The position numbers and the translations under genes were made by a program. Positions 25,367 through 34,113 of a stretch of DNA of 34,122 nucleotides are shown piece after piece (the first letter of the stretch is position 1; every line of letters starts with the position of its first letter). Where the stretch lies: NCBI GenBank assembly GCA_021804785.1, contig JAJZGY010000024.1:1-34122 (forward strand). The letters are read 5' to 3'. The stretch comes from Pseudomonadota bacterium. Its GTDB lineage: Bacteria > Pseudomonadota > Alphaproteobacteria > Micropepsales > Micropepsaceae. The notes below the pieces were generated by a model. The model saw nothing but the letters and a program-made list of their open reading frames with translations. It searched no databases and had not been told where the DNA came from.

Positions 25367-26248
25367 ATGACTTTAGAACAACTTCGAATATTCGTTGCCG
25401 TGGCTGAGCGCGAACATGTTACGCGCGCGGCGGAAGCTCTCCACCTAACACAGTCCGCACTTAGTGCGGCGATACGGAACCTTGAGGCGCGGTATGACGT
25501 GGTACTGTTTAGAAGAGTTGGTCGCCGGATAGTTCTTACGGAAGAGGGTAAACTTTTTTTGGACGAGGCCAAGGCTGTATTGGCTCGAGCATCGGATGCT
25601 GAACATATTTTAGAAGAGTTTAGCGGGCTAAAGCGCGGTAGGCTTACTATTCAGGCCAGTCAAACCATCGCGAGCTATTGGTTGCCGATGAGATTGGCAG
25701 CTTATCGTAAGGCCTATCCCCAAATTGAGGTAAAGCTTCAGGCTGGTAACACACAGCAAGTCGCACGAGCCGTAGTTGAGGGGAGGGTTGATGTCGGATT
25801 TGCCGAGGGCCAGATTGAAGATCCAGCTTTTGAAATAGCAAGGGTTGGGGCGGACAGGCTTGTTGTAGTGGTGGCTGCGGCACATGGATGGGCCCGGCTG
25901 AAGCGCTTGCATGCTAAAGAGTTGATTTCCGGCGAGTGGGTGCTGCGTGAGCCTGGTTCAGGAACAAGGTCTGAATTTGAGTCAGCGCTTCGGGCACGGG
26001 GAATAGAGGTTGGTAAACTTACTGTGGCTCTCGAACTTCCATCTAACGAAGCGGTATGTGTGGCTGTGCAGTCAGGGATTGGTGCCACGGCTATATCGGA
26101 GCTGGCTGTATCGGCGGAGCTCAGGTCTGGCGCGCTTGTTCGGGTGCCCTATAGGTTGCCGGAACGAGAGTTTTATGCAGTTCGCTTGAGGGGGCGCTAT
26201 TATTCGCGGGCGGCAAAGGCATTTATGACAGTAGCTACGGGAACCTAG
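25367..26248 (+). CDS. LysR-family transcriptional regulator
   Basis: The 293-residue protein starts with the LysR helix-turn-helix (MTLEQLRIFVAVAEREHVTRAAEALHLT, recognition helix about residues 28-38 with SALSAAIRNLEA) and continues with a two-lobed effector domain from about residue 88. The type with a GRLTIQASQTIASYWLP lobe entry and the GIGATAISELAV segment resembles CysL/CbbR-like regulators of sulfur or carbon metabolism. It lies at the edge of the sulfide cluster and is transcribed towards it, but it is separated from DUF2892 by 335 bases and convergent with it, so the target cannot be read from position. The ATG at 25367 starts at the family's normal first residue. No other change was seen. 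Confidence 0.9.
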   Translation: MTLEQLRIFVAVAEREHVTRAAEALHLTQSALSAAIRNLEARYDVVLFRRVGRRIVLTEEGKLFLDEAKAVLARASDAEHILEEFSGLKRGRLTIQASQTIASYWLPMRLAAYRKAYPQIEVKLQAGNTQQVARAVVEGRVDVGFAEGQIEDPAFEIARVGADRLVVVVAAAHGWARLKRLHAKELISGEWVLREPGSGTRSEFESALRARGIEVGKLTVALELPSNEAVCVAVQSGIGATAISELAVSAELRSGALVRVPYRLPEREFYAVRLRGRYYSRAAKAFMTVATGT

Positions 26249-26583: not shown

Positions 26584-26787
26584 CTATTCGAAGGCGCTAC
26601 CTGATCTGAGTCCGAGTTTTCGGAAAATTATCGCGGCAGGGCAGAACTTCGTAAACGCAGCCTGTAGCATGTTGAGACCGGCAAATGCGCTAAGTAGAAG
26701 CCACCAAGGAGAAATCACCTGGGACAGTATAAGCCCAAGGAGAACAACAAATCCCGCAAACGCGAGGACTGCACGATCGATGTTCAT
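26584..26787 (-). CDS. DUF2892 small membrane protein (YgaP membrane-domain type)
   Basis: This 67-residue protein starts MNIDRAVLAFAGFVVLLGLI, has two hydrophobic segments (about 7-25 and 27-45) and ends with the family signature FTKFCPAAIIFRKLGL. DUF2892 is the membrane-anchoring half of E. coli YgaP, where it is fused to a rhodanese domain. Here it stands alone, 11 bases after the sulfide:quinone oxidoreductase stop and in the same operon, while the rhodanese is encoded by the divergent operon. It may anchor or dock a sulfurtransferase at the inner membrane next to the quinone reductase, which is inference. A single Cys (in FCP) is conserved in the family. Confidence 0.87.
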   Translation of the reverse strand: MNIDRAVLAFAGFVVLLGLILSQVISPWWLLLSAFAGLNMLQAAFTKFCPAAIIFRKLGLRSGSAFE

Positions 26788-26798
26788 AATATCTCCTG

Positions 26799-28076
26799 TT
26801 ATCGAGTGCGTGTTAGGCGATGGATGCCCAATGCCTGCATGATCCAGCGTTCGTAGAAAGGCTCACTTTCACCTTTCCGCATCTTCCGCAGGTAATATTT
26901 TTCGAACGCTTGCTTTGCGTAATGAACCCATACGCCTTGTGACGACCAGTTGACATTGCGTGGTGGTATTTGGGGTTCTGCAACAAAGGCGATTCCTCTG
27001 TCGCCAAAGTCTGCCAGGCAGACGGCGTTCCAAGTTGCTTCAGCGTCCGGAGTAACTCCCCGCAGCAACGCTCCGACATTATGTGTGGCTGCCGTCACCA
27101 TAGATTCAATCATAAATCCGGTTTTAGGTACGCCAACTGGCACGGGAGTAGGGCCGGTTGGGGCAATCGCAACGCAAACTCCAATCGCAAAAATGTTCTG
27201 GAACGACGGGTTGCGTTGTCCTCGATCCACAAGCACAAATCCGCGTGCATTAGTGAGCCCATCAATTCCATATACTGCTCTTACTCCGCGAAATGCCGGT
27301 AGAATCATAGAATAGGAAAACGGCAAATCAAAAGACGCCCTTATTTTACCGTCCTCGGCTAACTGGTCCACCAACATATTTTGGGGGTTCACGCTTTTAA
27401 TTGTGGCGTTAGTGATCCACTTGATGTGACGCTTTCGGAGCTCACTTTCGAGTAGTCCTTTGGTGTCCCCTACGCCATCTAATCCGAGGTGGCCAATATA
27501 CGGTTCTGGAGTAACGAAGGTCATGGGCACCTTGTGGCGCAGACGTTGCCTTCGTAGTTCAGTATCCAGGATAAAAGCGAATTCGTAGGCGGGTCCAAAG
27601 CACGACGCTCCTTGGCTAGCGCCCACTACAATGGGGCCAGGATCTTTGATGAAGGCCTTAAGAGCGTTACTCGCCTTTTCCGCGTGGTCGACATGGCATA
27701 TCGAGTGTGTGAAGCGGTCTGGTCCAAGTCCATCGACTTCATCGAACGCGAGGTCTGGGCCAGTGGCGATAATGAGATAGTCATATGGCAGTGATGTCCC
27801 ATCCGTAAGCTCTAGGAAGTTCTTCTCCGGATGTAAGCGCTTTCCACCTTTATCTATATACCTGATATTCTTTCGGCTCATGACTTCCGGGAGTGAAACT
27901 TCTATGTCAACTTTGGACCTCCATCCTGCAGCCACCCAGGGGTTTGAAGGCACGAAATGGTATGTTGGCCCTTGGCCCACTACAACCAACTCGTCCTCAG
28001 ACCTGAGAGCCGGCTTCAGTTCGTAGGCCATTAATGTCCCAGCTAGGCCCGCGCCGAGAATTACGATCTTTGCCAT
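26799..28076 (-). CDS. sqr: Sulfide:quinone oxidoreductase
   Basis: SQR oxidises hydrogen sulfide to sulfane sulfur/polysulfide and passes electrons to the quinone pool at the inner membrane. The 425-residue flavoprotein has an N-terminal FAD motif (ILGAGLAG, 6-13), YHFVPSNPWVAAGW, and all three cysteines of the Acidithiobacillus ferrooxidans enzyme: C127 (SICHVDHA), C159 (GASCFGPAYE) and C353 (NAVCLADFG), equivalent to C128, C160 and C356. The C-terminal quinone-binding part (PQIPPRNVNW, FEKYYLRKM) is complete. The ATG at 28076 has GCAGGAG in front. It is divergent from bigR and followed by DUF2892. Length and motifs match the A. ferrooxidans group closely, consistent with an acidophilic or sulfur-rich habitat, though that is inference. 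Confidence 0.95.
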   Translation of the reverse strand: MAKIVILGAGLAGTLMAYELKPALRSEDELVVVGQGPTYHFVPSNPWVAAGWRSKVDIEVSLPEVMSRKNIRYIDKGGKRLHPEKNFLELTDGTSLPYDYLIIATGPDLAFDEVDGLGPDRFTHSICHVDHAEKASNALKAFIKDPGPIVVGASQGASCFGPAYEFAFILDTELRRQRLRHKVPMTFVTPEPYIGHLGLDGVGDTKGLLESELRKRHIKWITNATIKSVNPQNMLVDQLAEDGKIRASFDLPFSYSMILPAFRGVRAVYGIDGLTNARGFVLVDRGQRNPSFQNIFAIGVCVAIAPTGPTPVPVGVPKTGFMIESMVTAATHNVGALLRGVTPDAEATWNAVCLADFGDRGIAFVAEPQIPPRNVNWSSQGVWVHYAKQAFEKYYLRKMRKGESEPFYERWIMQALGIHRLTRTR

Positions 28077-28172
28077 GCAAAATCTCCTGCATGCCTATTT
28101 TGGTCTGTGGCACGGCGCCTTCATTGATTGAACGCAAAAAGCGTCGCCGAATTCCCAAGCCATTATCAGCGC

Positions 28173-28204
28173 TTGACAATAAGTTCTATACGTCGTATAT
28201 ACGA
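28173..28204 (+). promoter_or_regulatory. bigR promoter with overlapping operator palindrome
   Basis: TTGACA (28173-28178), a 17-base spacer and TATATA (28196-28201) make a near-perfect sigma-70-type promoter. A perfect 12-base palindrome, TCGTATATACGA (28193-28204), covers the -10 element, followed by AT-rich GAATATAT/GAATATAA repeats. Binding of the downstream ArsR-type repressor here would block the promoter, giving autoregulation; the divergent sqr promoter is probably controlled from the same 130-base gap. Confidence 0.7.
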
Positions 28205-28208
28205 ATAT

Positions 28209-28565
28209 ATGAATATAAATATCGGCCAAATGCAACAGCAGGCAGCGGCTGCCGAGCAGCTTCTAAAGGCTGCTGCCAACCGTCACCGCCTGATGATTCT
28301 CTGCCAACTCGTCGAGGGTCCGCAGCCGGTCCATAGGTTGGCAGAGTTTCTTGACCTCAGAGACTCTACTGTTTCCCAGCATCTTACGTTGTTACGAAAA
28401 GACGGCCTTGTCTCTACTCGTCGTGATGGTCAAACGATTTGGTATTCGCTCACAAGTGAGCCCGGGAGACGACTCGTGGAAACCTTGTATGACATTTACT
28501 GCAATGAAGGCAGTAAATGTGCTGTGAAGGTAAAGATGCGTTCTAATAAGAGGGTGATGCGATGA
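28209..28565 (+). CDS. bigR: BigR/SqrR-type persulfide-sensing ArsR-family repressor
   Basis: The 118-residue winged-helix protein has the ArsR core LLKAAANRHRLMILCQLVEG, the recognition helix DSTVSQHLTLLRKDGLV and the wing TRRDGQTIWYSL. Its two cysteines, C32 in MILC and C98 in DIYC, are 66 residues apart, exactly the spacing of the persulfide-sensing pairs C41/C107 in SqrR and C42/C108 in BigR; a further Cys follows at 104. It should repress the operon until sulfane sulfur links the cysteines. The start is ATG 28209, directly at the predicted transcription start (possibly leaderless), or ATG 28230; neither has a clear ribosome site. A longer frame from 28128 would read through the promoter. 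Its stop overlaps the rhodanese ATG. Confidence 0.9.
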   Translation: MNINIGQMQQQAAAAEQLLKAAANRHRLMILCQLVEGPQPVHRLAEFLDLRDSTVSQHLTLLRKDGLVSTRRDGQTIWYSLTSEPGRRLVETLYDIYCNEGSKCAVKVKMRSNKRVMR

Positions 28566-28912
28566 CAATAGTTAATCTCGAGCCGAATGAAGTCTCACGT
28601 ATGCTGGAGGAGCGGAATATCTTATTGATAGACGTCAGGGAGCCCGCTGAGTACGAGGCGGAACACATCCAGGGGGCGTTCCTATATCCGCTGTCTTCGT
28701 TTGACCCGGAGATGATTCCGGTTCCCAATAATTTGATGGTAGTGTTTCAGTGCGGATCTGGGGTGCGTTCTGCAAAGGCTTTACAGGCATGCGAATCGGC
28801 CGGTCTTGCCTTTGAGCATCATCTCCGTGGTGGGATACAAGCCTGGAAGGCGGCGGGACTCCCGACCGTCAGTTTGGATCCTTCAACGGGAAGGGTGCGC
28901 GGCGCGCGCTAA
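28562..28912 (+). CDS. Rhodanese-domain sulfurtransferase
   Basis: The 116-residue single-domain rhodanese has the strand-helix pattern of the family (LLIDVREPAEYEAEHIQGA, 21-39) and the active-site loop with Cys64 in FQCGSGVRSAKAL, followed by the usual HHLRGGIQAWKAAGLP ending. It moves sulfane sulfur from persulfides to thiol or cyanide acceptors in the cytoplasm. Its ATG overlaps the bigR stop by four bases, so both are co-translated. The protein matches the soluble half of YgaP, whose membrane half (DUF2892) is a separate gene on the opposite strand. It probably handles the sulfane sulfur produced by SQR, which is inference from context. Confidence 0.93.
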   Translation: MTIVNLEPNEVSRMLEERNILLIDVREPAEYEAEHIQGAFLYPLSSFDPEMIPVPNNLMVVFQCGSGVRSAKALQACESAGLAFEHHLRGGIQAWKAAGLPTVSLDPSTGRVRGAR

Positions 28913-28919
28913 TTGGGCT

Positions 28920-29945
28920 ATGTGGCACTGGCTGTCGATCCTTCTTATATCGCTTGGACTTATTGCCAAGCCTGCCCCGCACGTTTCGCCCAGAAGCGCT
29001 GAAATTTTTACATATGATGTACATGATGGCTGGATAACAGACGAGAAGCCGGTGTTCGCCACAGTGGAGAGTACAAATATTGTGCCAGCGCGAGCGCGGG
29101 TAAGCGGTACGGTAGCAGAAGTCAATGTTCGTCAGGGAGATCACGTAAGCTTGGGCCAGCAGGTTGCCCAGGTCGGTGACCCGAAGCTAGTTTTGGCTGT
29201 CCAAGCCGCTACCGCCCGGATGGAGGCGGCACGGGCGCAACTCGGTCAGGCTCGTGCAGATTTTCGGCGCGCAGTGGGATTGATGAAAGCTGACGCCATA
29301 TCACAGGCTGCTTACGATGCTGCTAAAACTACGTTTGATGTTGCAAGCAAGACGCTCGCCGCACAAACTGCGTTGCGCGCAGAGGCAGAACAGCAGATGC
29401 GCGAAGGCCGTATTTTGGCTCCGGCAAGTGGAAGGGTTCTCACAATTTCGGCGACTGCTGGTACCGTCGTGATGGCGGGAGACAGTGTGGCTACCGTTGC
29501 CGTACAGAACTTTGTTCTGCGGCTGGAAGTACCAGAACGGCATGCACGCTTCCTTGCCGCCGGTGACAGAATTCGGGTAAATGGCGCGGATGTTGGCCTA
29601 GGTTCAGGCGTGAAATATGGAACGATTACGTTAGTTTATCCGCAAATTACCAATGGCTTAGTGCAGGCCGACGCCACCATTCCCGGACTAACAGACTATT
29701 ACGTAGGTGAGCGTGTTCAGGTTTGGATTTCCGCGGGAAGACGCAGAGCGATTGTTGTTCCTTCATCCTACGTTTTTACGCGTGATGGCATAGACTATGT
29801 CCGCTTGCTACGGAAGTGGGGCGCAGAAGATGTGCCCATCCAAAGGGGGTTGCCACACCCTACTCCTACTGAACCAGATGGCTTGGAAATCTTGTCAGGT
29901 CTGCATAGCGGTGATCGCTTGCTTAAGCCGCTGTACGGTGATTAA
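28920..29945 (+). CDS. RND efflux periplasmic adaptor (membrane fusion protein)
   Basis: This 341-residue adaptor of the HlyD/AcrA type has an N-terminal hydrophobic segment (WLSILLISLGLIA, 4-16). A lipoyl half-motif follows (ARVSGTVAEVNVRQGDHVSLGQQVAQV), then a coiled-coil hairpin with repeated heptads (about 85-150), the second lipoyl half (REGRILAPASGRVLTISATAGTVVMAGDSVATV) and beta-barrel domains. The ATG at 28920 lies 7 bases after the rhodanese stop; a longer frame starts inside the rhodanese gene and is unlikely. Co-transcribed with the RND pump, it should link the inner-membrane pump to an outer-membrane channel, for which no gene is in the window. The exported substrate is unknown. 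Linkage to the sulfur operon suggests polysulfide, thiols or metal-sulfur adducts, which is speculative. Confidence 0.88.
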   Translation: MWHWLSILLISLGLIAKPAPHVSPRSAEIFTYDVHDGWITDEKPVFATVESTNIVPARARVSGTVAEVNVRQGDHVSLGQQVAQVGDPKLVLAVQAATARMEAARAQLGQARADFRRAVGLMKADAISQAAYDAAKTTFDVASKTLAAQTALRAEAEQQMREGRILAPASGRVLTISATAGTVVMAGDSVATVAVQNFVLRLEVPERHARFLAAGDRIRVNGADVGLGSGVKYGTITLVYPQITNGLVQADATIPGLTDYYVGERVQVWISAGRRRAIVVPSSYVFTRDGIDYVRLLRKWGAEDVPIQRGLPHPTPTEPDGLEILSGLHSGDRLLKPLYGD

Positions 29946-29947
29946 CC

Positions 29948-32900
29948 ATGAAACTTGGTCTTTCCGGGCGGCTAACTCAAGCTACCATTTCTTCGAAACT
30001 TACCCCACTGTTTCTCATCGCCGCTCTAGTTGCTGGAATATTCGCTGTCTTCACGATACCGCGTGAAGAAGAGCCCCAAATTCATGTGCCGATGGTGGAT
30101 ATTATTATTCAGGCGAATGGCCTTTCTGCGGCCGACGCTGTGCAGCAGGTTACCAAGCCTGTGGAACAGATTGTTAAGGGCATAAGGGGGGTAGAACACG
30201 TCTACAGTCAGACGCAAGACAATCAGGTGATGGTCACTGCCCGCTTCTATACAGGAACAACTGTAGATCAGGCGGTGCTTCGAGTTCAGGCTCAGTTACG
30301 CGCGAATTACAACCGAATTCCCTTGGGCATACCGGAACCACTGATTGTAGCCCACGGCATCAGCGATGTTGCCATAGTTACGCTCACGCTGGTGCCTAAG
30401 CCCGGTGCCGCATCTCGTTGGAGCCCGCAGGCGCTCTACACGCTGGCCAAAAAGGTGCAGTCGCAGCTAGATAAAACTGAAAACGTCGGGTTGACCTATA
30501 TATCTGGCGGAGCACCAGAGGAGATCAGCGTCGAACCGGATCCTGCTAAACTTGCTCTGTTTGGAGTAACGCTTCAACAACTTGAAGCAAAAATACAGGG
30601 CGCCAACCGGTCTGAACTGGCCGGAGAGATACGCTATCGCGACAAGGAAATGCAGGTCGTGGCGGGTAAGACACTCTCCGGAGTGCCGGATATTGGCCTG
30701 CTGCTGGTGGAATCGCGAGATGGAAGACCAGTGTATGTGCGCGACCTCGCGAAGGTCGTTGTCAACTCAAATCCCTCGAATAGTTACGTTTGGAATGTAG
30801 ATAAATCAGGGGGGCATTGGGAGGCGGCGCCAGCCATAACTGTTGCGTTTGCGAAGCGACCAGGTTCAAACGCGGTGGTGGTAGCTGACAGTCTGATTAG
30901 GCGGCTTCATTCCATTGAAGGAACAATTGTACCGAGAGATATTTCTATAAAGGTCACTCGTGATTACGGGAAAAGTGCCAATGATAAAGCGAACGAGCTG
31001 CTCTTTCACTTGGCATTAGCCACTGTTTCAATTGTACTTCTAATTGGCATTTCTATCGGGTGGAGGGAGGCTGCGGTAACGGCTGTCGTCATCCCTACAA
31101 CCATTTTGTTAACGTTGTTCGCCGCAAAGGTAATGGGATATAGCATTAATCGGGTCAGTTTATTCGCTCTGATCTTTTCAATAGGAATTTTAGTTGATGA
31201 TGCAATAGTGGTAATTGAGAATATTTCTCGTCACTGGGAGATGGGTGACGGCCGTGGCCGCATGAGGGCGGCGATCGAGGCCGTTGCGGAAGTGGGTAAC
31301 CCAACTGTAGTAGCAACGCTGACTGTTATCGCAGCCCTTTTGCCGATGCTATTTGTCTCAGGAATGATGGGACCGTACATGGCCCCCATCCCCGTGAATG
31401 CATCAGCCGCGATGCTCTTCTCGTTCTTTGTCGCCATGGTAATAGCGCCTTGGGCCCTGGTTAAATTCGCTGGGGATGACTCTCAGAGATCTTCTGCCGC
31501 GCACCATAAGGAAAATGCACTATCGCGTATCTATCGGCGGATGGCGTCACCGATTGTGTCGTCGAAGAAGAACGCGAAAAGATTTCTTCTGGCAGTTACA
31601 GTGGCAACGGTCGCGGTTTGCGGCCTTTTTTATACGGAGAACGTAACGGTTAAGCTTCTTCCCTTTGATAATAAGTCCGACTTGTCTGTCATGGTAGATT
31701 TGCGAGAAGGTGCCACCGTCGAAGATACAGCGCAGGCCTTGTTTCAGGTTGCGCATATAGCTGAGCAATTTCCCGAAGTACGGCAGATGCAGCTGTACGC
31801 GGGAACACCGGCACCGTTTGATTTCAACGGTCTCGTACGGCACTACTATATGCGCACTCAACCTGAGCTCGGGCAGGCATCTCTGCAACTTTTACCAAAG
31901 TCTGATCGCGATCGGGAAAGCCATACTATTGCCCTAGATTTACGCCGACGATTAGACGCTGCACAGTGGCCGAAGGGCACGTCAATTAAGGTTGTAGAGG
32001 TGCCAGCTGGTCCGCCAGTGTTGGCTCCGCTTCTGGCTGAGATTTACGGACCTGATATCAAAACTCGACGCGCAGTTGCGGAAGAAGTTGAGAAGCTTTT
32101 TAAGTCAGTGCCTTACATAGTTGACGTAGATAATTCCTTCGGGAGGTCTCGGCCGCAGTTAAGAATTGTTCCTGACGAGGACAAGTTAGAATATTTCGGG
32201 GTCCAAGAATCGGATGTCTATGACACCATAAGTGCCCTCTTTGGCGGACAGTTGGTTGGATATTCTCACAGAGGCACCGATCGTGATCCGATTCCAATTG
32301 TAGTTCGAGAACCCAAATCAGAACTTACCTGGAATCGGGTATTGGCGTCGACACCGGTACCGGCGAATTCCTTGCCGGGAAGCCGGAATGTAGTTGAACT
32401 CGGAGAGCTCGTGAATGTCCATGAAACAAAAGGGTCCCCGGTACTGTTTCGAAGAGACGGGCATTACGCGGACATGGTCACTGGGGATGTTGCGGGGGAA
32501 TTTGAGTCACCAATCTATGGAATGCTCGCCGTTGACAAGCTGATTGCGAAGCACAATTGGGGGAATCTACCTCGACCAAGCATTCGCTTTCATGGACAAC
32601 CAACAAATGAGTCCAGGCCGTCTTTGCTCTGGGATGGTGAGTGGGAGGTCACTTATGTGACGTTCCGTGACATGGGGGCGGCATTCATAATCGCAATTTT
32701 GGGTATATATGTTCTAGTAGTGGGGCAATTCGGCAGCTTTAAACTGCCGCTCGTTATACTAACCCCTATCCCACTCACTCTCATCGGAATAGTGCTCGGG
32801 CATTGGCTCTTCGGAGCGCCGTTTACTGCCACCTCCATGATTGGATTTATCGCGCTAGCTGGAATAATTGTGAGAAATTCAATTCTCTTGGTGGACTTTA

Positions 32901-33172
32901 TTCGTCATGGTGCAGGAGAAAGTGGAAAGCCTCTTCGTGAGGTCTTGCTCGATGCTGGTGCGACGCGGTTTCGTCCGATTCTGCTGACGGCTTTGGCGGC
33001 GATGATCGGGGCTGCAACAATACTTAGTGATCCCATATTTCAGGGGTTGGCGATATCGTTGCTGTTCGGATTAGCCTCATCAACTCTGCTAACTGTACTG
33101 GTAATTCCTGCAATTTACGTGTGGCTCAGAGATGCGGATCAACCTGTGGTGACCAGGCCGGAGAACGGCTGA
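29948..33172 (+). CDS. RND efflux transporter permease (AcrB/HAE1-like)
   Basis: The 1074-residue inner-membrane pump follows the RND plan: an N-terminal membrane helix (SKLTPLFLIAALVAGIFAVFTIP), a large periplasmic loop, a block of helices with the proton-relay motif GILVDDAIVVIEN (Asp417 and Asp418), a second periplasmic loop, and a closing helix block (GQFGSFKLPLVILTPIPLTLIG, GFIALAGIIVRNSILLVDFI). The paired Asp and the tail helices match the hydrophobe/amphiphile exporters rather than the CzcA metal pumps. The ATG at 29948 starts two bases after the adaptor stop. It is the last gene of bigR-rhodanese-adaptor-pump; a 155-base gap precedes the TauE gene. The family normally exports drugs or lipids; the sulfur context suggests a different or unusual load, which is not shown by sequence. 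Confidence 0.92.
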   Translation: MKLGLSGRLTQATISSKLTPLFLIAALVAGIFAVFTIPREEEPQIHVPMVDIIIQANGLSAADAVQQVTKPVEQIVKGIRGVEHVYSQTQDNQVMVTARFYTGTTVDQAVLRVQAQLRANYNRIPLGIPEPLIVAHGISDVAIVTLTLVPKPGAASRWSPQALYTLAKKVQSQLDKTENVGLTYISGGAPEEISVEPDPAKLALFGVTLQQLEAKIQGANRSELAGEIRYRDKEMQVVAGKTLSGVPDIGLLLVESRDGRPVYVRDLAKVVVNSNPSNSYVWNVDKSGGHWEAAPAITVAFAKRPGSNAVVVADSLIRRLHSIEGTIVPRDISIKVTRDYGKSANDKANELLFHLALATVSIVLLIGISIGWREAAVTAVVIPTTILLTLFAAKVMGYSINRVSLFALIFSIGILVDDAIVVIENISRHWEMGDGRGRMRAAIEAVAEVGNPTVVATLTVIAALLPMLFVSGMMGPYMAPIPVNASAAMLFSFFVAMVIAPWALVKFAGDDSQRSSAAHHKENALSRIYRRMASPIVSSKKNAKRFLLAVTVATVAVCGLFYTENVTVKLLPFDNKSDLSVMVDLREGATVEDTAQALFQVAHIAEQFPEVRQMQLYAGTPAPFDFNGLVRHYYMRTQPELGQASLQLLPKSDRDRESHTIALDLRRRLDAAQWPKGTSIKVVEVPAGPPVLAPLLAEIYGPDIKTRRAVAEEVEKLFKSVPYIVDVDNSFGRSRPQLRIVPDEDKLEYFGVQESDVYDTISALFGGQLVGYSHRGTDRDPIPIVVREPKSELTWNRVLASTPVPANSLPGSRNVVELGELVNVHETKGSPVLFRRDGHYADMVTGDVAGEFESPIYGMLAVDKLIAKHNWGNLPRPSIRFHGQPTNESRPSLLWDGEWEVTYVTFRDMGAAFIIAILGIYVLVVGQFGSFKLPLVILTPIPLTLIGIVLGHWLFGAPFTATSMIGFIALAGIIVRNSILLVDFIRHGAGESGKPLREVLLDAGATRFRPILLTALAAMIGAATILSDPIFQGLAISLLFGLASSTLLTVLVIPAIYVWLRDADQPVVTRPENG

Positions 33173-33327
33173 TACGTCCGAGATGCATCAAAGTTGGCTG
33201 AATTTGAGGAGGCTAGTTTTGCCGTCCTAGAGAGCTCTGGAGAGATGCATGCGTGGGAATATGCAGATCGATTGGAGGCTGCGTAGGGGAAGCTCCGGCA
33301 TTGGACAGATATGGATAGGACGTTGGC

Positions 33328-34113
33328 ATGACGACCCTGCAGATGCTTCTGGCGGTGCTTTCAGGAAGTATTGTTGGACTGTCTCTTGGTCTCATCGGGG
33401 GAGGTGGATCAATACTGGCGGTACCGCTAATGATCTACGTAGTGGGAGTATCTTCACCGCATTTGGCTATAGGTAGCAGCGCGGTGGCTGTTGCAACAAA
33501 TGCCTTTATAAATCTCTTCGGTCATGCTCGGGACGGTAATGTAAAGTGGCGATGCTCCCTGGTATTTGCGGGATTTGGAATTGCTGGTGCAGCTGTTGGT
33601 GCACAGGTCGGGAAAGCTGTTGACGGAAAAAGTCTGCTTTCCGCGTTCGGCGTTTTGATGGTTGTAGTGGCTGTACTTATGCTCTTGCCGCGAAGGGGCG
33701 GAGATGATCCTCATGTTCGGCTGGACTTGAGATCTGCAAAGAAGCTTGTGCCGGCTTTAGCGGGTACCGGCTTTGGAGTAGGAGCATTATCGGGATTTTT
33801 CGGCATTGGCGGAGGCTTTTTAATCGTTCCGGGCCTGGTGAGTGCGACCGCGATGCCACTTCTTAATGCAATTGGGTCTTCGCTTGTTTCGGTTGCCGCG
33901 TTTGGAGCAACAGCGGCAGTTAGCTACGCAGTGTCAGGTTTAGTAAGTTGGACTGTGGCAATCCTGTTTATTTTGGGCGGTGTGCTTGGAGGTGTTGCAG
34001 GAGTGCGGTTGGCACGGCGTCTTTCTGCCAGTAAGCGCGGGCTGTCATTAGTGTTCAGTGCCATTGTAGCGATCGTTGGGCTATACGTCATTGTAAAAGG
34101 TACGATGGGCTAG
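33328..34113 (+). CDS. TauE/SafE-family sulfite/organosulfur exporter
   Basis: The 261-residue protein is a TauE/SafE permease of seven or eight transmembrane helices built as two repeats: SLGLIGGGGSILAVPLMIYVVG early and LSGFFGIGGGFLIVPGLVSAT after the middle loop. Both contain the glycine-rich G-x-GGG turn and proline typical of the family. TauE/SafE proteins export sulfite, sulfoacetate or related anions; members near SQR and BigR genes have been linked to sulfide detoxification. The ATG at 33328 has a weak AGGA site about 10 bases upstream. The stop (TAG) ends at 34113, nine bases before the window edge. It follows the pump by 155 bases and may or may not be in the same transcript; those bases hold no gene I recognise. 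Confidence 0.9.
   Translation: MTTLQMLLAVLSGSIVGLSLGLIGGGGSILAVPLMIYVVGVSSPHLAIGSSAVAVATNAFINLFGHARDGNVKWRCSLVFAGFGIAGAAVGAQVGKAVDGKSLLSAFGVLMVVVAVLMLLPRRGGDDPHVRLDLRSAKKLVPALAGTGFGVGALSGFFGIGGGFLIVPGLVSATAMPLLNAIGSSLVSVAAFGATAAVSYAVSGLVSWTVAILFILGGVLGGVAGVRLARRLSASKRGLSLVFSAIVAIVGLYVIVKGTMG

Follow-up and report, generated by a model that had tools for sequence, protein, structure and literature searches.

A gene module linking a DUF2892 subtype and an RND pump to predicted sulfide sensing and oxidation

The contig JAJZGY010000024.1 of a bacterium of the Micropepsaceae (Alphaproteobacteria; assembly GCA_021804785.1, 3.29 Mb, 96% complete) was analysed over its entire length of 34122 bases and is called the window in the following. 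It carries a group of seven genes centred on a pump of the resistance-nodulation-division (RND) type. A small membrane protein of the DUF2892 family and a sulfide:quinone oxidoreductase (SQR) are encoded on the minus strand, opposite a plus-strand series of a BigR-type repressor, a rhodanese, a periplasmic adaptor (membrane fusion protein, MFP), the RND permease and a TauE-type protein. This module is real, widespread and conserved. Probably it serves the detoxification of sulfide, is induced by sulfane sulfur and possesses an export arm of its own, for which a sulfur cargo is presumed. The single claim which we consider most likely is that the DUF2892 subtype and the RND-superfamily permease would cooperate in exporting a product of sulfide oxidation.

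We collected 80 RND loci by similarity of the RND protein alone and counted partner genes within 6 kb. DUF2892 is present in 67 and BigR in 65 loci, followed by SQR (41), rhodanese (23), TolC-type genes (8), persulfide dioxygenase (PDO; 6) and TauE (5), whereby these and other locus counts hold a few duplicates from double fetches (L036/L054, L104/L227, L126/L223). The gene set recurs in other genomes. In an even draw of Pseudomonadota 160 genomes matched, and 60 places in 59 genomes were fetched. The 19 high-scoring loci of 33 (own genome excluded) hold DUF2892 in 13, BigR in 14, SQR in 13 and rhodanese in 7 cases; the respective numbers for the 41 lower-scoring loci are 21, 13, 7 and 14.

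The co-occurrence for which the original prediction proposed a test was also found between genomes, in tests that all ignore kinship. Within the window's genus, SQR occurs in 14/20 genomes with the RND gene versus 2/40 without (p=2e-7), DUF2892 in 19/20 versus 13/40 (p=4e-6). Among 385 alphaproteobacterial genomes from 276 genera, 29 have the RND gene, 15 have SQR and 11 have both, so that SQR is present in 11/29 RND genomes versus 4/356 others (p=7e-11). Of the 12 families in which SQR occurs, nine have the RND gene too.

Relative to the pump, 66 loci have the DUF2892 gene upstream on the opposite strand and 41 have it upstream on the strand of the pump; in 14 loci it is located downstream on that strand. 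The neighbours of the pump recur in other families in differing gene orders. As the pairing of DUF2892 and pump survives rearrangement, a shared function of the two is suggested, and we regard this as the best sign of it.

The permease represents a separate ortholog group. Its orthologs are 56-92% identical; the other RND matches listed for the genus (E 1e-50) reach at most 28%. An ortholog (at least 71% identity) is found in 20/60 genomes of the genus, in two of them as fragments. A DUF2892 match lies within 13 kb of 15/19 ortholog places versus 0/60 paralog places; for the remaining four ortholog places it is found on another contig in three cases and at 16 kb in one. The permease is matched by 14 NCBIfam RND models, none of them at its subfamily cut-off, the named drug and metal subfamilies included. 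D417 and D418, conserved at 97% or more in a set of 123 orthologs, are presumably the functional aspartate pair in transmembrane helix 4 of RND pumps. Together with the ACR_tran domain and the adaptor gene they mark the protein as a predicted RND pump.

In a FastTree phylogeny, which has long branches, the permeases fall into an alphaproteobacterial clade, a mostly non-alphaproteobacterial clade of 22 rows (exception L238) including a Vibrio plasmid copy, and a basal group. The outgroup row L031 is placed inside the alphaproteobacterial clade and was excluded from the counts. DUF2892 accompanies 17/22 rows of the mostly non-alphaproteobacterial clade and 4/6 of the basal group. Between these groups lies a clade of 13 rows (L198-L202, L237, L242-L248), which serves as an internal control. 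In it neither DUF2892, also by broader models, nor BigR, SQR or rhodanese was found, whereby L246 and L248 have less than 1.5 kb of sequence on one side.

An outer-membrane factor is not encoded in the window, and hence the operon does not contain a complete tripartite pump; 14 OEP-domain matches are located elsewhere in the genome. In some relatives such a factor is annotated inside the module, e.g. on the Sphingomonas plasmid pISP1. Four loci of one non-alphaproteobacterial family (L213, L214, L253, L254) show the order BigR-TolC-MFP-RND-DUF2892 followed by three rhodanese matches. SQR is near in three of them, and one or two additional DUF2892 genes of another type are present.

The DUF2892 subtype and its transporter partners

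Pump-linked DUF2892 proteins carry the signature N-x2-Q-x3-T-x2-C in helix 2 (N39, Q42, T46 and C49 in the window, within GLNMLQAAFTKFCPA). At 100 degrees per residue all four positions share one face of the helix. C49 is found in 125/125 copies near the pump, N39 and Q42 in 123 each. The full motif is present in 121/121 best copies per locus and in 121/131 of all DUF2892 copies near the pump. Since a hidden Markov model built from pump-linked copies may favour the motif, the latter total was taken from a rescan with models of other types. Nine of the 10 motif-free copies share their locus with a motif-bearing one, and one of the ten belongs to a PDO gene group of Paracoccus (L135) 4 kb from the pump.

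Away from the pump, 22 DUF2892 matches were found in the genus, of which 19 were compared (L266, with an internal stop, was left out); none of these 19 has the motif. It is likewise absent from the second copies in L260 and L261. When the Paracoccus copy is added, the 20 compared sequences comprise 12 of YgaP type (GxGLxFAGxSGWCG or similar) and 8 that represent a third type (CPA); the cysteine is kept in all of them. One copy that has the motif (G029) is located 16 kb from its RND gene.

The original prediction had interpreted rhodanese and DUF2892 as the separated halves of E. coli YgaP, which is wrong in detail. The two are individual genes on opposite strands, and the YgaP motif GxGLxFAGxSGxCG does not occur in helix 2 of the window protein, from which the copies of YgaP type in L259 and L269-L274 deviate. 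Moreover, wherever a YgaP-type frame was checked in a PDO locus of a sister genome (six cases: L141-L144, L147, L148), it proved to be a rhodanese-YgaP_TM fusion. A subtype of its own together with a fused YgaP in sister genomes argues that the module is not made of two halves of a broken YgaP; judged by sequence, it holds a distinct DUF2892 subtype. The fusions stand beside a Blh-type PDO, so that the genus has another group of sulfur genes in addition to the module.

In E. coli, sulfide derepresses ygaVP (PMC9774250; this and the other papers cited are represented here by excerpts). That operon and the window have in common a regulator from one group, beside which a rhodanese and a DUF2892 domain are encoded. 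The window differs by having separate genes, the subtype GxNxxQxxxTxFCPA instead of GxGLxFAGxSGxCG, and linked SQR and RND pump genes.

The gene set was found in alphaproteobacteria, in other Pseudomonadota, on Vibrio and Salinivibrio plasmids and on a cyanobacterial plasmid. Among the plasmid matches listed, 35/40 RND records also carry the window-type DUF2892 at a distance of at most 2.8 kb. A plasmid search with the window DUF2892 itself gave 81 records, 60 of which were listed, and ten regions were read. In the cyanobacterium Pseudanabaena, ArsR-DUF2892-flavoprotein and rhodanese-MFP-RND lie within 6 kb, and in Salinivibrio MFP-RND-ArsR is located opposite DUF2892-flavoprotein. A weak DUF2892 relative in Sphingobium EP60837 has neither motif nor transporter. 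On plasmid 1 of Paracoccus denitrificans PD1222 (L135 3440-12159) a PDO-DUF2892-YeeE-DUF6691-sulfurtransferase group adjoins DUF2892-MFP-RND. Both sulfur routes can hence stand side by side.

A variant of the pairing exists in actinobacteria. On plasmids of Tsukamurella, Rhodococcus and Nocardia the DUF2892 gene lies 84-448 nt from a gene for an MMPL transporter (PF03176) in 11/11 records in which both places were read; in three further records among those listed there is another MMPL place, the position of which is outside this count. MMPL transporters belong to the RND superfamily. The full motif is present in the Tsukamurella protein. All four regions read (L280, L282, L283, L288) contain a CsoR-family repressor, in each case with two cysteines 29 residues apart (C35, C64), G60 and no histidine four positions before the second cysteine. 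We take this cysteine spacing without the histidine to be the rule for the persulfide sensor CstR, which the repressors would then fit. An NCBIfam scan of them returned no CstR model, only copper, formaldehyde and once nickel/cobalt models, all below cut-off. Sulfur genes are present in the four regions and vary by plasmid (rhodanese, TauE, metallo-beta-lactamase-fold genes, an SQR-like flavoprotein), with DUF302 near.

Like the window, these groups, for instance that on pRHL3 of Rhodococcus jostii RHA1, combine DUF2892 and an adjacent permease of the RND superfamily with rhodanese, TauE or a flavoprotein resembling SQR. Unlike the window, they use MMPL in place of RND and MFP and a repressor from another family. 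That a like small protein adjoins MMPL in company of sulfur genes and of a different repressor suggests that the permease-DUF2892 pair is the core of the module. As the actinobacterial partner is an MMPL permease, adaptor and outer channel would be a Gram-negative addition. No paper on the actinobacterial DUF2892-MMPL groups is known to us, and no search aimed at them was made.

Sulfide oxidation, sensing and the bigR promoter

The SQR can be aligned from end to end with SQR of the Acidithiobacillus ferrooxidans type (Table 1). C127, C159 and C353, which we take to be the catalytic cysteines, are conserved in 76, 76 and 75 of 76 sequences. Cysteines and full-length similarity together point to an SQR of this type. 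The active-site C64 of the rhodanese is present in 76/78 module copies. In Bradyrhizobium loci and several others from alphaproteobacteria (L059 5735-6178, L078 5907-6365) a TrxC-type thioredoxin gene is located between SQR and DUF2892; the window has none there.

The best solved relatives of the regulator are HlyU, an ArsR regulator that by its entry codes is presumably SqrR, BigR, NolR and YgaV. C32 and C98 align with the HlyU cysteines, i.e. the sensor positions, and are kept in 115/120 and 95/120 sequences. The score against the NCBIfam BigR equivalog model is 89.5 bits with a cut-off of 155, so that the protein is a relative and not an equivalog of BigR. The earlier assignment as BigR/SqrR-type repressor holds as to the ArsR winged helix with its two conserved cysteines and has to be loosened in this respect.

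TTGACA (28173-28178) and TATATA (28196-28201), separated by a 17-nt spacer, form the putative bigR promoter. The palindrome CGTATATACG at 28194-28203 covers its -10 element and occurs nowhere else in the window, even at one mismatch. The bigR ATG starts 5 nt past the palindrome. Hence the bigR mRNA is probably leaderless or nearly so. ATG 28209 is preferred as start over TTG 28128 because the promoter spacing is conserved. In a set of 20 loci (17 of the genus, L049 and L050 from other families, and the window; RND fragments L051-L053 dropped) the palindrome is found at fixed spacing to the ATG in 15/18 BigR genes. Exceptions are L040, L050 and the second BigR gene in L041; the one site with 0-1 mismatch in these loci that does not belong to a bigR promoter is in L049. 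An automated promoter scan passes over the bigR promoter, since it accepts only a second hexamer that ends in T, and the assignment builds on conservation instead. The palindrome is thus a candidate operator that appears specific to bigR in the window's genus.

A possible export route and its alternatives

Two steps of the proposed mechanism are well supported by homology. SQR would oxidise H2S with quinone to sulfane sulfur (persulfide or polysulfide), and the BigR-type repressor would be switched off by sulfane sulfur via C32 and C98, thereby freeing the bigR promoter. The presence of a rhodanese and of an RND-MFP pump is likewise backed by homology and conservation. The anatomy of the locus suggests the remaining ones. 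The repressor may bind at CGTATATACG over the -10 element and control both directions. The cytoplasmic rhodanese may load sulfane sulfur, the NxxQ...C hairpin of DUF2892 may pass or present it in the inner membrane, and RND and MFP could expel sulfur species with a TolC-type channel encoded elsewhere. TauE would take sulfite.

The product of SQR is reactive sulfane sulfur. The sinks known to us are oxidation by PDO, transfer and storage; a pump as sulfane-sulfur sink is not established in the literature examined. Tentatively, and a little short of calling it probable, we propose that the N(xxQ)...C hairpin and the RND-superfamily permease constitute a dedicated sulfane-sulfur exporter, with RND and MFP in Gram-negatives and MMPL in actinobacteria. 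The hairpin would hand sulfur to the permease, and the SQR product would be disposed of without PDO. A pump and a small membrane protein tied to sulfide sensing and oxidation would make this a possible new disposal route for reactive sulfur, and a testable one. The earlier suggestion that the RND pump may remove sulfur species is not supported as written, as no sequence evidence shows the export cargo.

Several observations weigh against the main reading, a sulfane-sulfur-induced detoxification module with an export arm. DUF2892 is missing within 6 kb in 13/80 RND loci (five of which have at most ~2 kb upstream) and in 5/40 RND plasmid records among the matches listed, and SQR is not near the pump in about half of the loci. 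The RND protein has no conserved cysteine. Motif-bearing DUF2892 genes occur without a transporter nearby: in G043 of the genus beside SQR at a contig end, where no RND gene was found; in Paenarthrobacter, where the record ends 0.4 kb beyond; and in Azospirillum argentinense Az39, where a short adaptor-like gene is left. The Rhodococcus and Nocardia proteins keep N39 and C49, not Q42 and T46. The palindrome occurs at 0-1 mismatch in just 16 of the 98 regions upstream of other BigR genes, a set that includes one genus copy (L054) or more; 7 of the 98 have it exactly, and no other exact 10-base palindrome is as common in them. Deleting a whole SQR-RND operon of Azospira suillum left the H2S oxidation rate unchanged (PMC5358917). 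Finally, a Bradyrhizobium operon under NnrR control implies that sulfide is not the sole input (see below). The Az39 copy itself (L287 4663-6204) keeps ArsR, rhodanese and DUF2892, with the short adaptor-like gene where related strains have MFP and RND, and is perhaps decayed.

The A. suillum operon (Dsui_3440-3443, unknown/RND/SQR/MFP) is highly expressed under H2S oxidation and gives a Bar-seq signal. A separate DUF2892 gene is ~10-fold up, and its deletion slightly delayed the onset (PMC5358917). SQR, RND and MFP are together as in the window. The order is different, BigR and rhodanese are not named in the excerpt, and the RND protein is likened by description. Its authors think of metal sulfides (PMC5358917), in line with a rival explanation. 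The pump could clear secondary damage in cells under sulfide stress, be it complexes of metals with sulfide, S-alkylated or S-thiolated hydrophobic compounds or accumulating toxic organics, with sulfide as inducer and sulfur not as cargo. RND pumps usually export organics or metals, the nearest solved structures (MdtB, ZneA, MexK, AcrB) are drug and metal pumps alike with none close, and the Nocardia plasmid MMPL-DUF2892 group lies near a mercury gene. However, a general stress pump is not expected to pair with one DUF2892 subtype of invariant cysteine, and this across RND or MMPL. We consider this explanation rather unlikely.

A role in nitrosative stress or in the stress of low-oxygen respiration, in which the module would clear species of mixed sulfur-nitrogen composition and sulfide would be just one input, was considered because blr5774-trxC-bsr5776 of Bradyrhizobium (FAD oxidoreductase, TrxC, DUF2892) is listed in the NnrR regulon table (PMC6710368). 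The order, as listed, is that of the SQR-TrxC-DUF2892 half which stands next to the pump in Bradyrhizobium-type loci such as L059; the window, unlike this operon, has no trxC there. Yet the regulator linked to the module is BigR and not an NO regulator, and in the excerpt NnrR control is seen for one strain. This makes the role very improbable.

Even slightly more remote appears the handling of thiocyanate or cyanide by DUF2892 and rhodanese, as proposed for YgaP, with export of the product by the pump. In YgaP, SCN- elicits a response of the transmembrane domain in the vicinity of C159, and an export function has been proposed (PMC4730233). The PF11127-type proteins compared here have a conserved cysteine towards the end of helix 2, which may be equivalent to C159. 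Against this stand the co-occurrence of SQR with the pump, the presence of rhodanese near it in just 23/80 loci and the sulfane-sulfur type of the regulator.

In the own genome (96% complete assembly) no PDO was found by a Blh-type query, by metallo-beta-lactamase fold or by motifs; an ETHE1-type query was not used. The best Blh-type match has 46 bits, and the HxHADH motif, which we take to be a PDO motif, occurs in 0/10 metallo-beta-lactamase-fold open reading frames of the assembly. A search by DNA pattern carries no weight (six matches versus 5 for the reversed-pattern control). The best candidate for a hidden PDO, L178, was rejected, its best score being on a glyoxalase II model and below the cut-off of that model. 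Within the genus, Blh-type PDO (16 genomes with a match of at least 184 bits to the query, by which other PDO types are missed) is present in 3/20 genomes with the pump versus 13/40 without (p=0.22). As this inverse relation is not significant and PDO is near the pump in 6/80 loci, the RND pump was rejected as a strict replacement of PDO. The absence of a visible PDO, as claimed before, thus stands for this assembly; the pump as substitute does not.

The bigR operon of Xylella and Agrobacterium encodes BigR, a Blh sulfurtransferase/dioxygenase and a TauE-related exporter (PMC5823870). The BigR-type regulator and TauE are shared with the window, which has MFP-RND instead and no Blh/PDO gene, neither in the window nor found in the assembly, and is therefore no classical bigR operon. 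In Rhodobacter capsulatus, loss of the rhodanese rcc01557 prolongs sqr induction within the SqrR regulon (PMC9995734). The two systems share SQR and one rhodanese under control of the BigR/SqrR type; RND or DUF2892 are not named in the excerpt.

ArsR regulators that respond to sulfane sulfur are described as neighbours of TauE, RND pumps, sqr, pdo and rhd (PMC12423496), so the vicinity of regulator and RND is known in general terms. The module sharpens this remark into a partner set of one RND group, a motif-bearing DUF2892 and an operator predicted for one genus. In open-access literature on DUF2892, as far as the texts were accessible, none was found naming it as partner of an RND pump, and titles and abstract starts contain no claim of such a sulfur pump; the MMPL variant was not searched for. 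As far as searched, novelty extends to the defined RND group, the subtype of DUF2892, the operator and the parallel with MMPL, the last being outside that literature search. Taken together, the interpretation given in the original prediction is supported in part, by the sensor cysteines, the SQR cysteines, the recurring gene set and the PDO not found in the assembly, and is not supported in the split YgaP, the PDO replacement and the pump cargo.

Layout and surroundings of the locus

The features are summarised in Table 1. All seven genes are intact and open at or near the positions first proposed, as judged by open reading frame, Pfam and NCBIfam checks, and the divergent arrangement of DUF2892 and SQR versus bigR-rhodanese-MFP-RND-tauE was confirmed.

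Table 1. Features of the module in the window
Feature	Position	Strand	Basis
DUF2892 (YgaP-like transmembrane), 67 aa	26584..26787	-	PF11127 43.5 bits, gathering cut-off 25.3
SQR, predicted A. ferrooxidans type	26799..28076	-	455 bits to 3SZ0 and related chains, cysteines aligned
Putative bigR promoter and operator-like site	28173..28208	+	conserved position relative to ATG
ArsR-family repressor, BigR/SqrR/YgaV/HlyU group	28209..28565	+	solved relatives; C32, C98
Single-domain rhodanese	28562..28912	+	PF00581 62.9 bits; active-site loop CGSGVR (C64)
RND periplasmic adaptor (MFP), 341 aa	28920..29945	+	HlyD_3, HlyD_D23; TIGR01730 above cut-off
RND permease, 1074 aa	29948..33172	+	ACR_tran 499 bits; separate ortholog group; D417, D418
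TauE/SafE membrane protein, putative sulfite exporter	33328..34113	+	PF01925 165.6 bits

On the minus strand the DUF2892 gene follows SQR after 11 nt. The compact plus-strand operon with tiny gaps and a single overlap was borne out: bigR and rhodanese overlap by 4 bases, and the gaps are 7 nt between rhodanese and MFP and 2 nt between MFP and RND. The distance from RND to TauE is 155 nt in the window; in the relatives L034, L035 and L038 the mechanical open reading frames of TauE and RND overlap by 4 bases.

With 51.7% GC in the module versus 55.4% in positions 1-22400, recent foreign DNA was considered and rejected. In eight relatives the difference between module and flank is at most 2.3 points.

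Just past the DUF2892 gene a LysR regulator is encoded (25367-26248, plus strand). Its best NCBIfam models, below cut-off, are the LysR of selenium metabolism and YeiE. LysR genes 52% identical to it are located near the module in L044 and L047.

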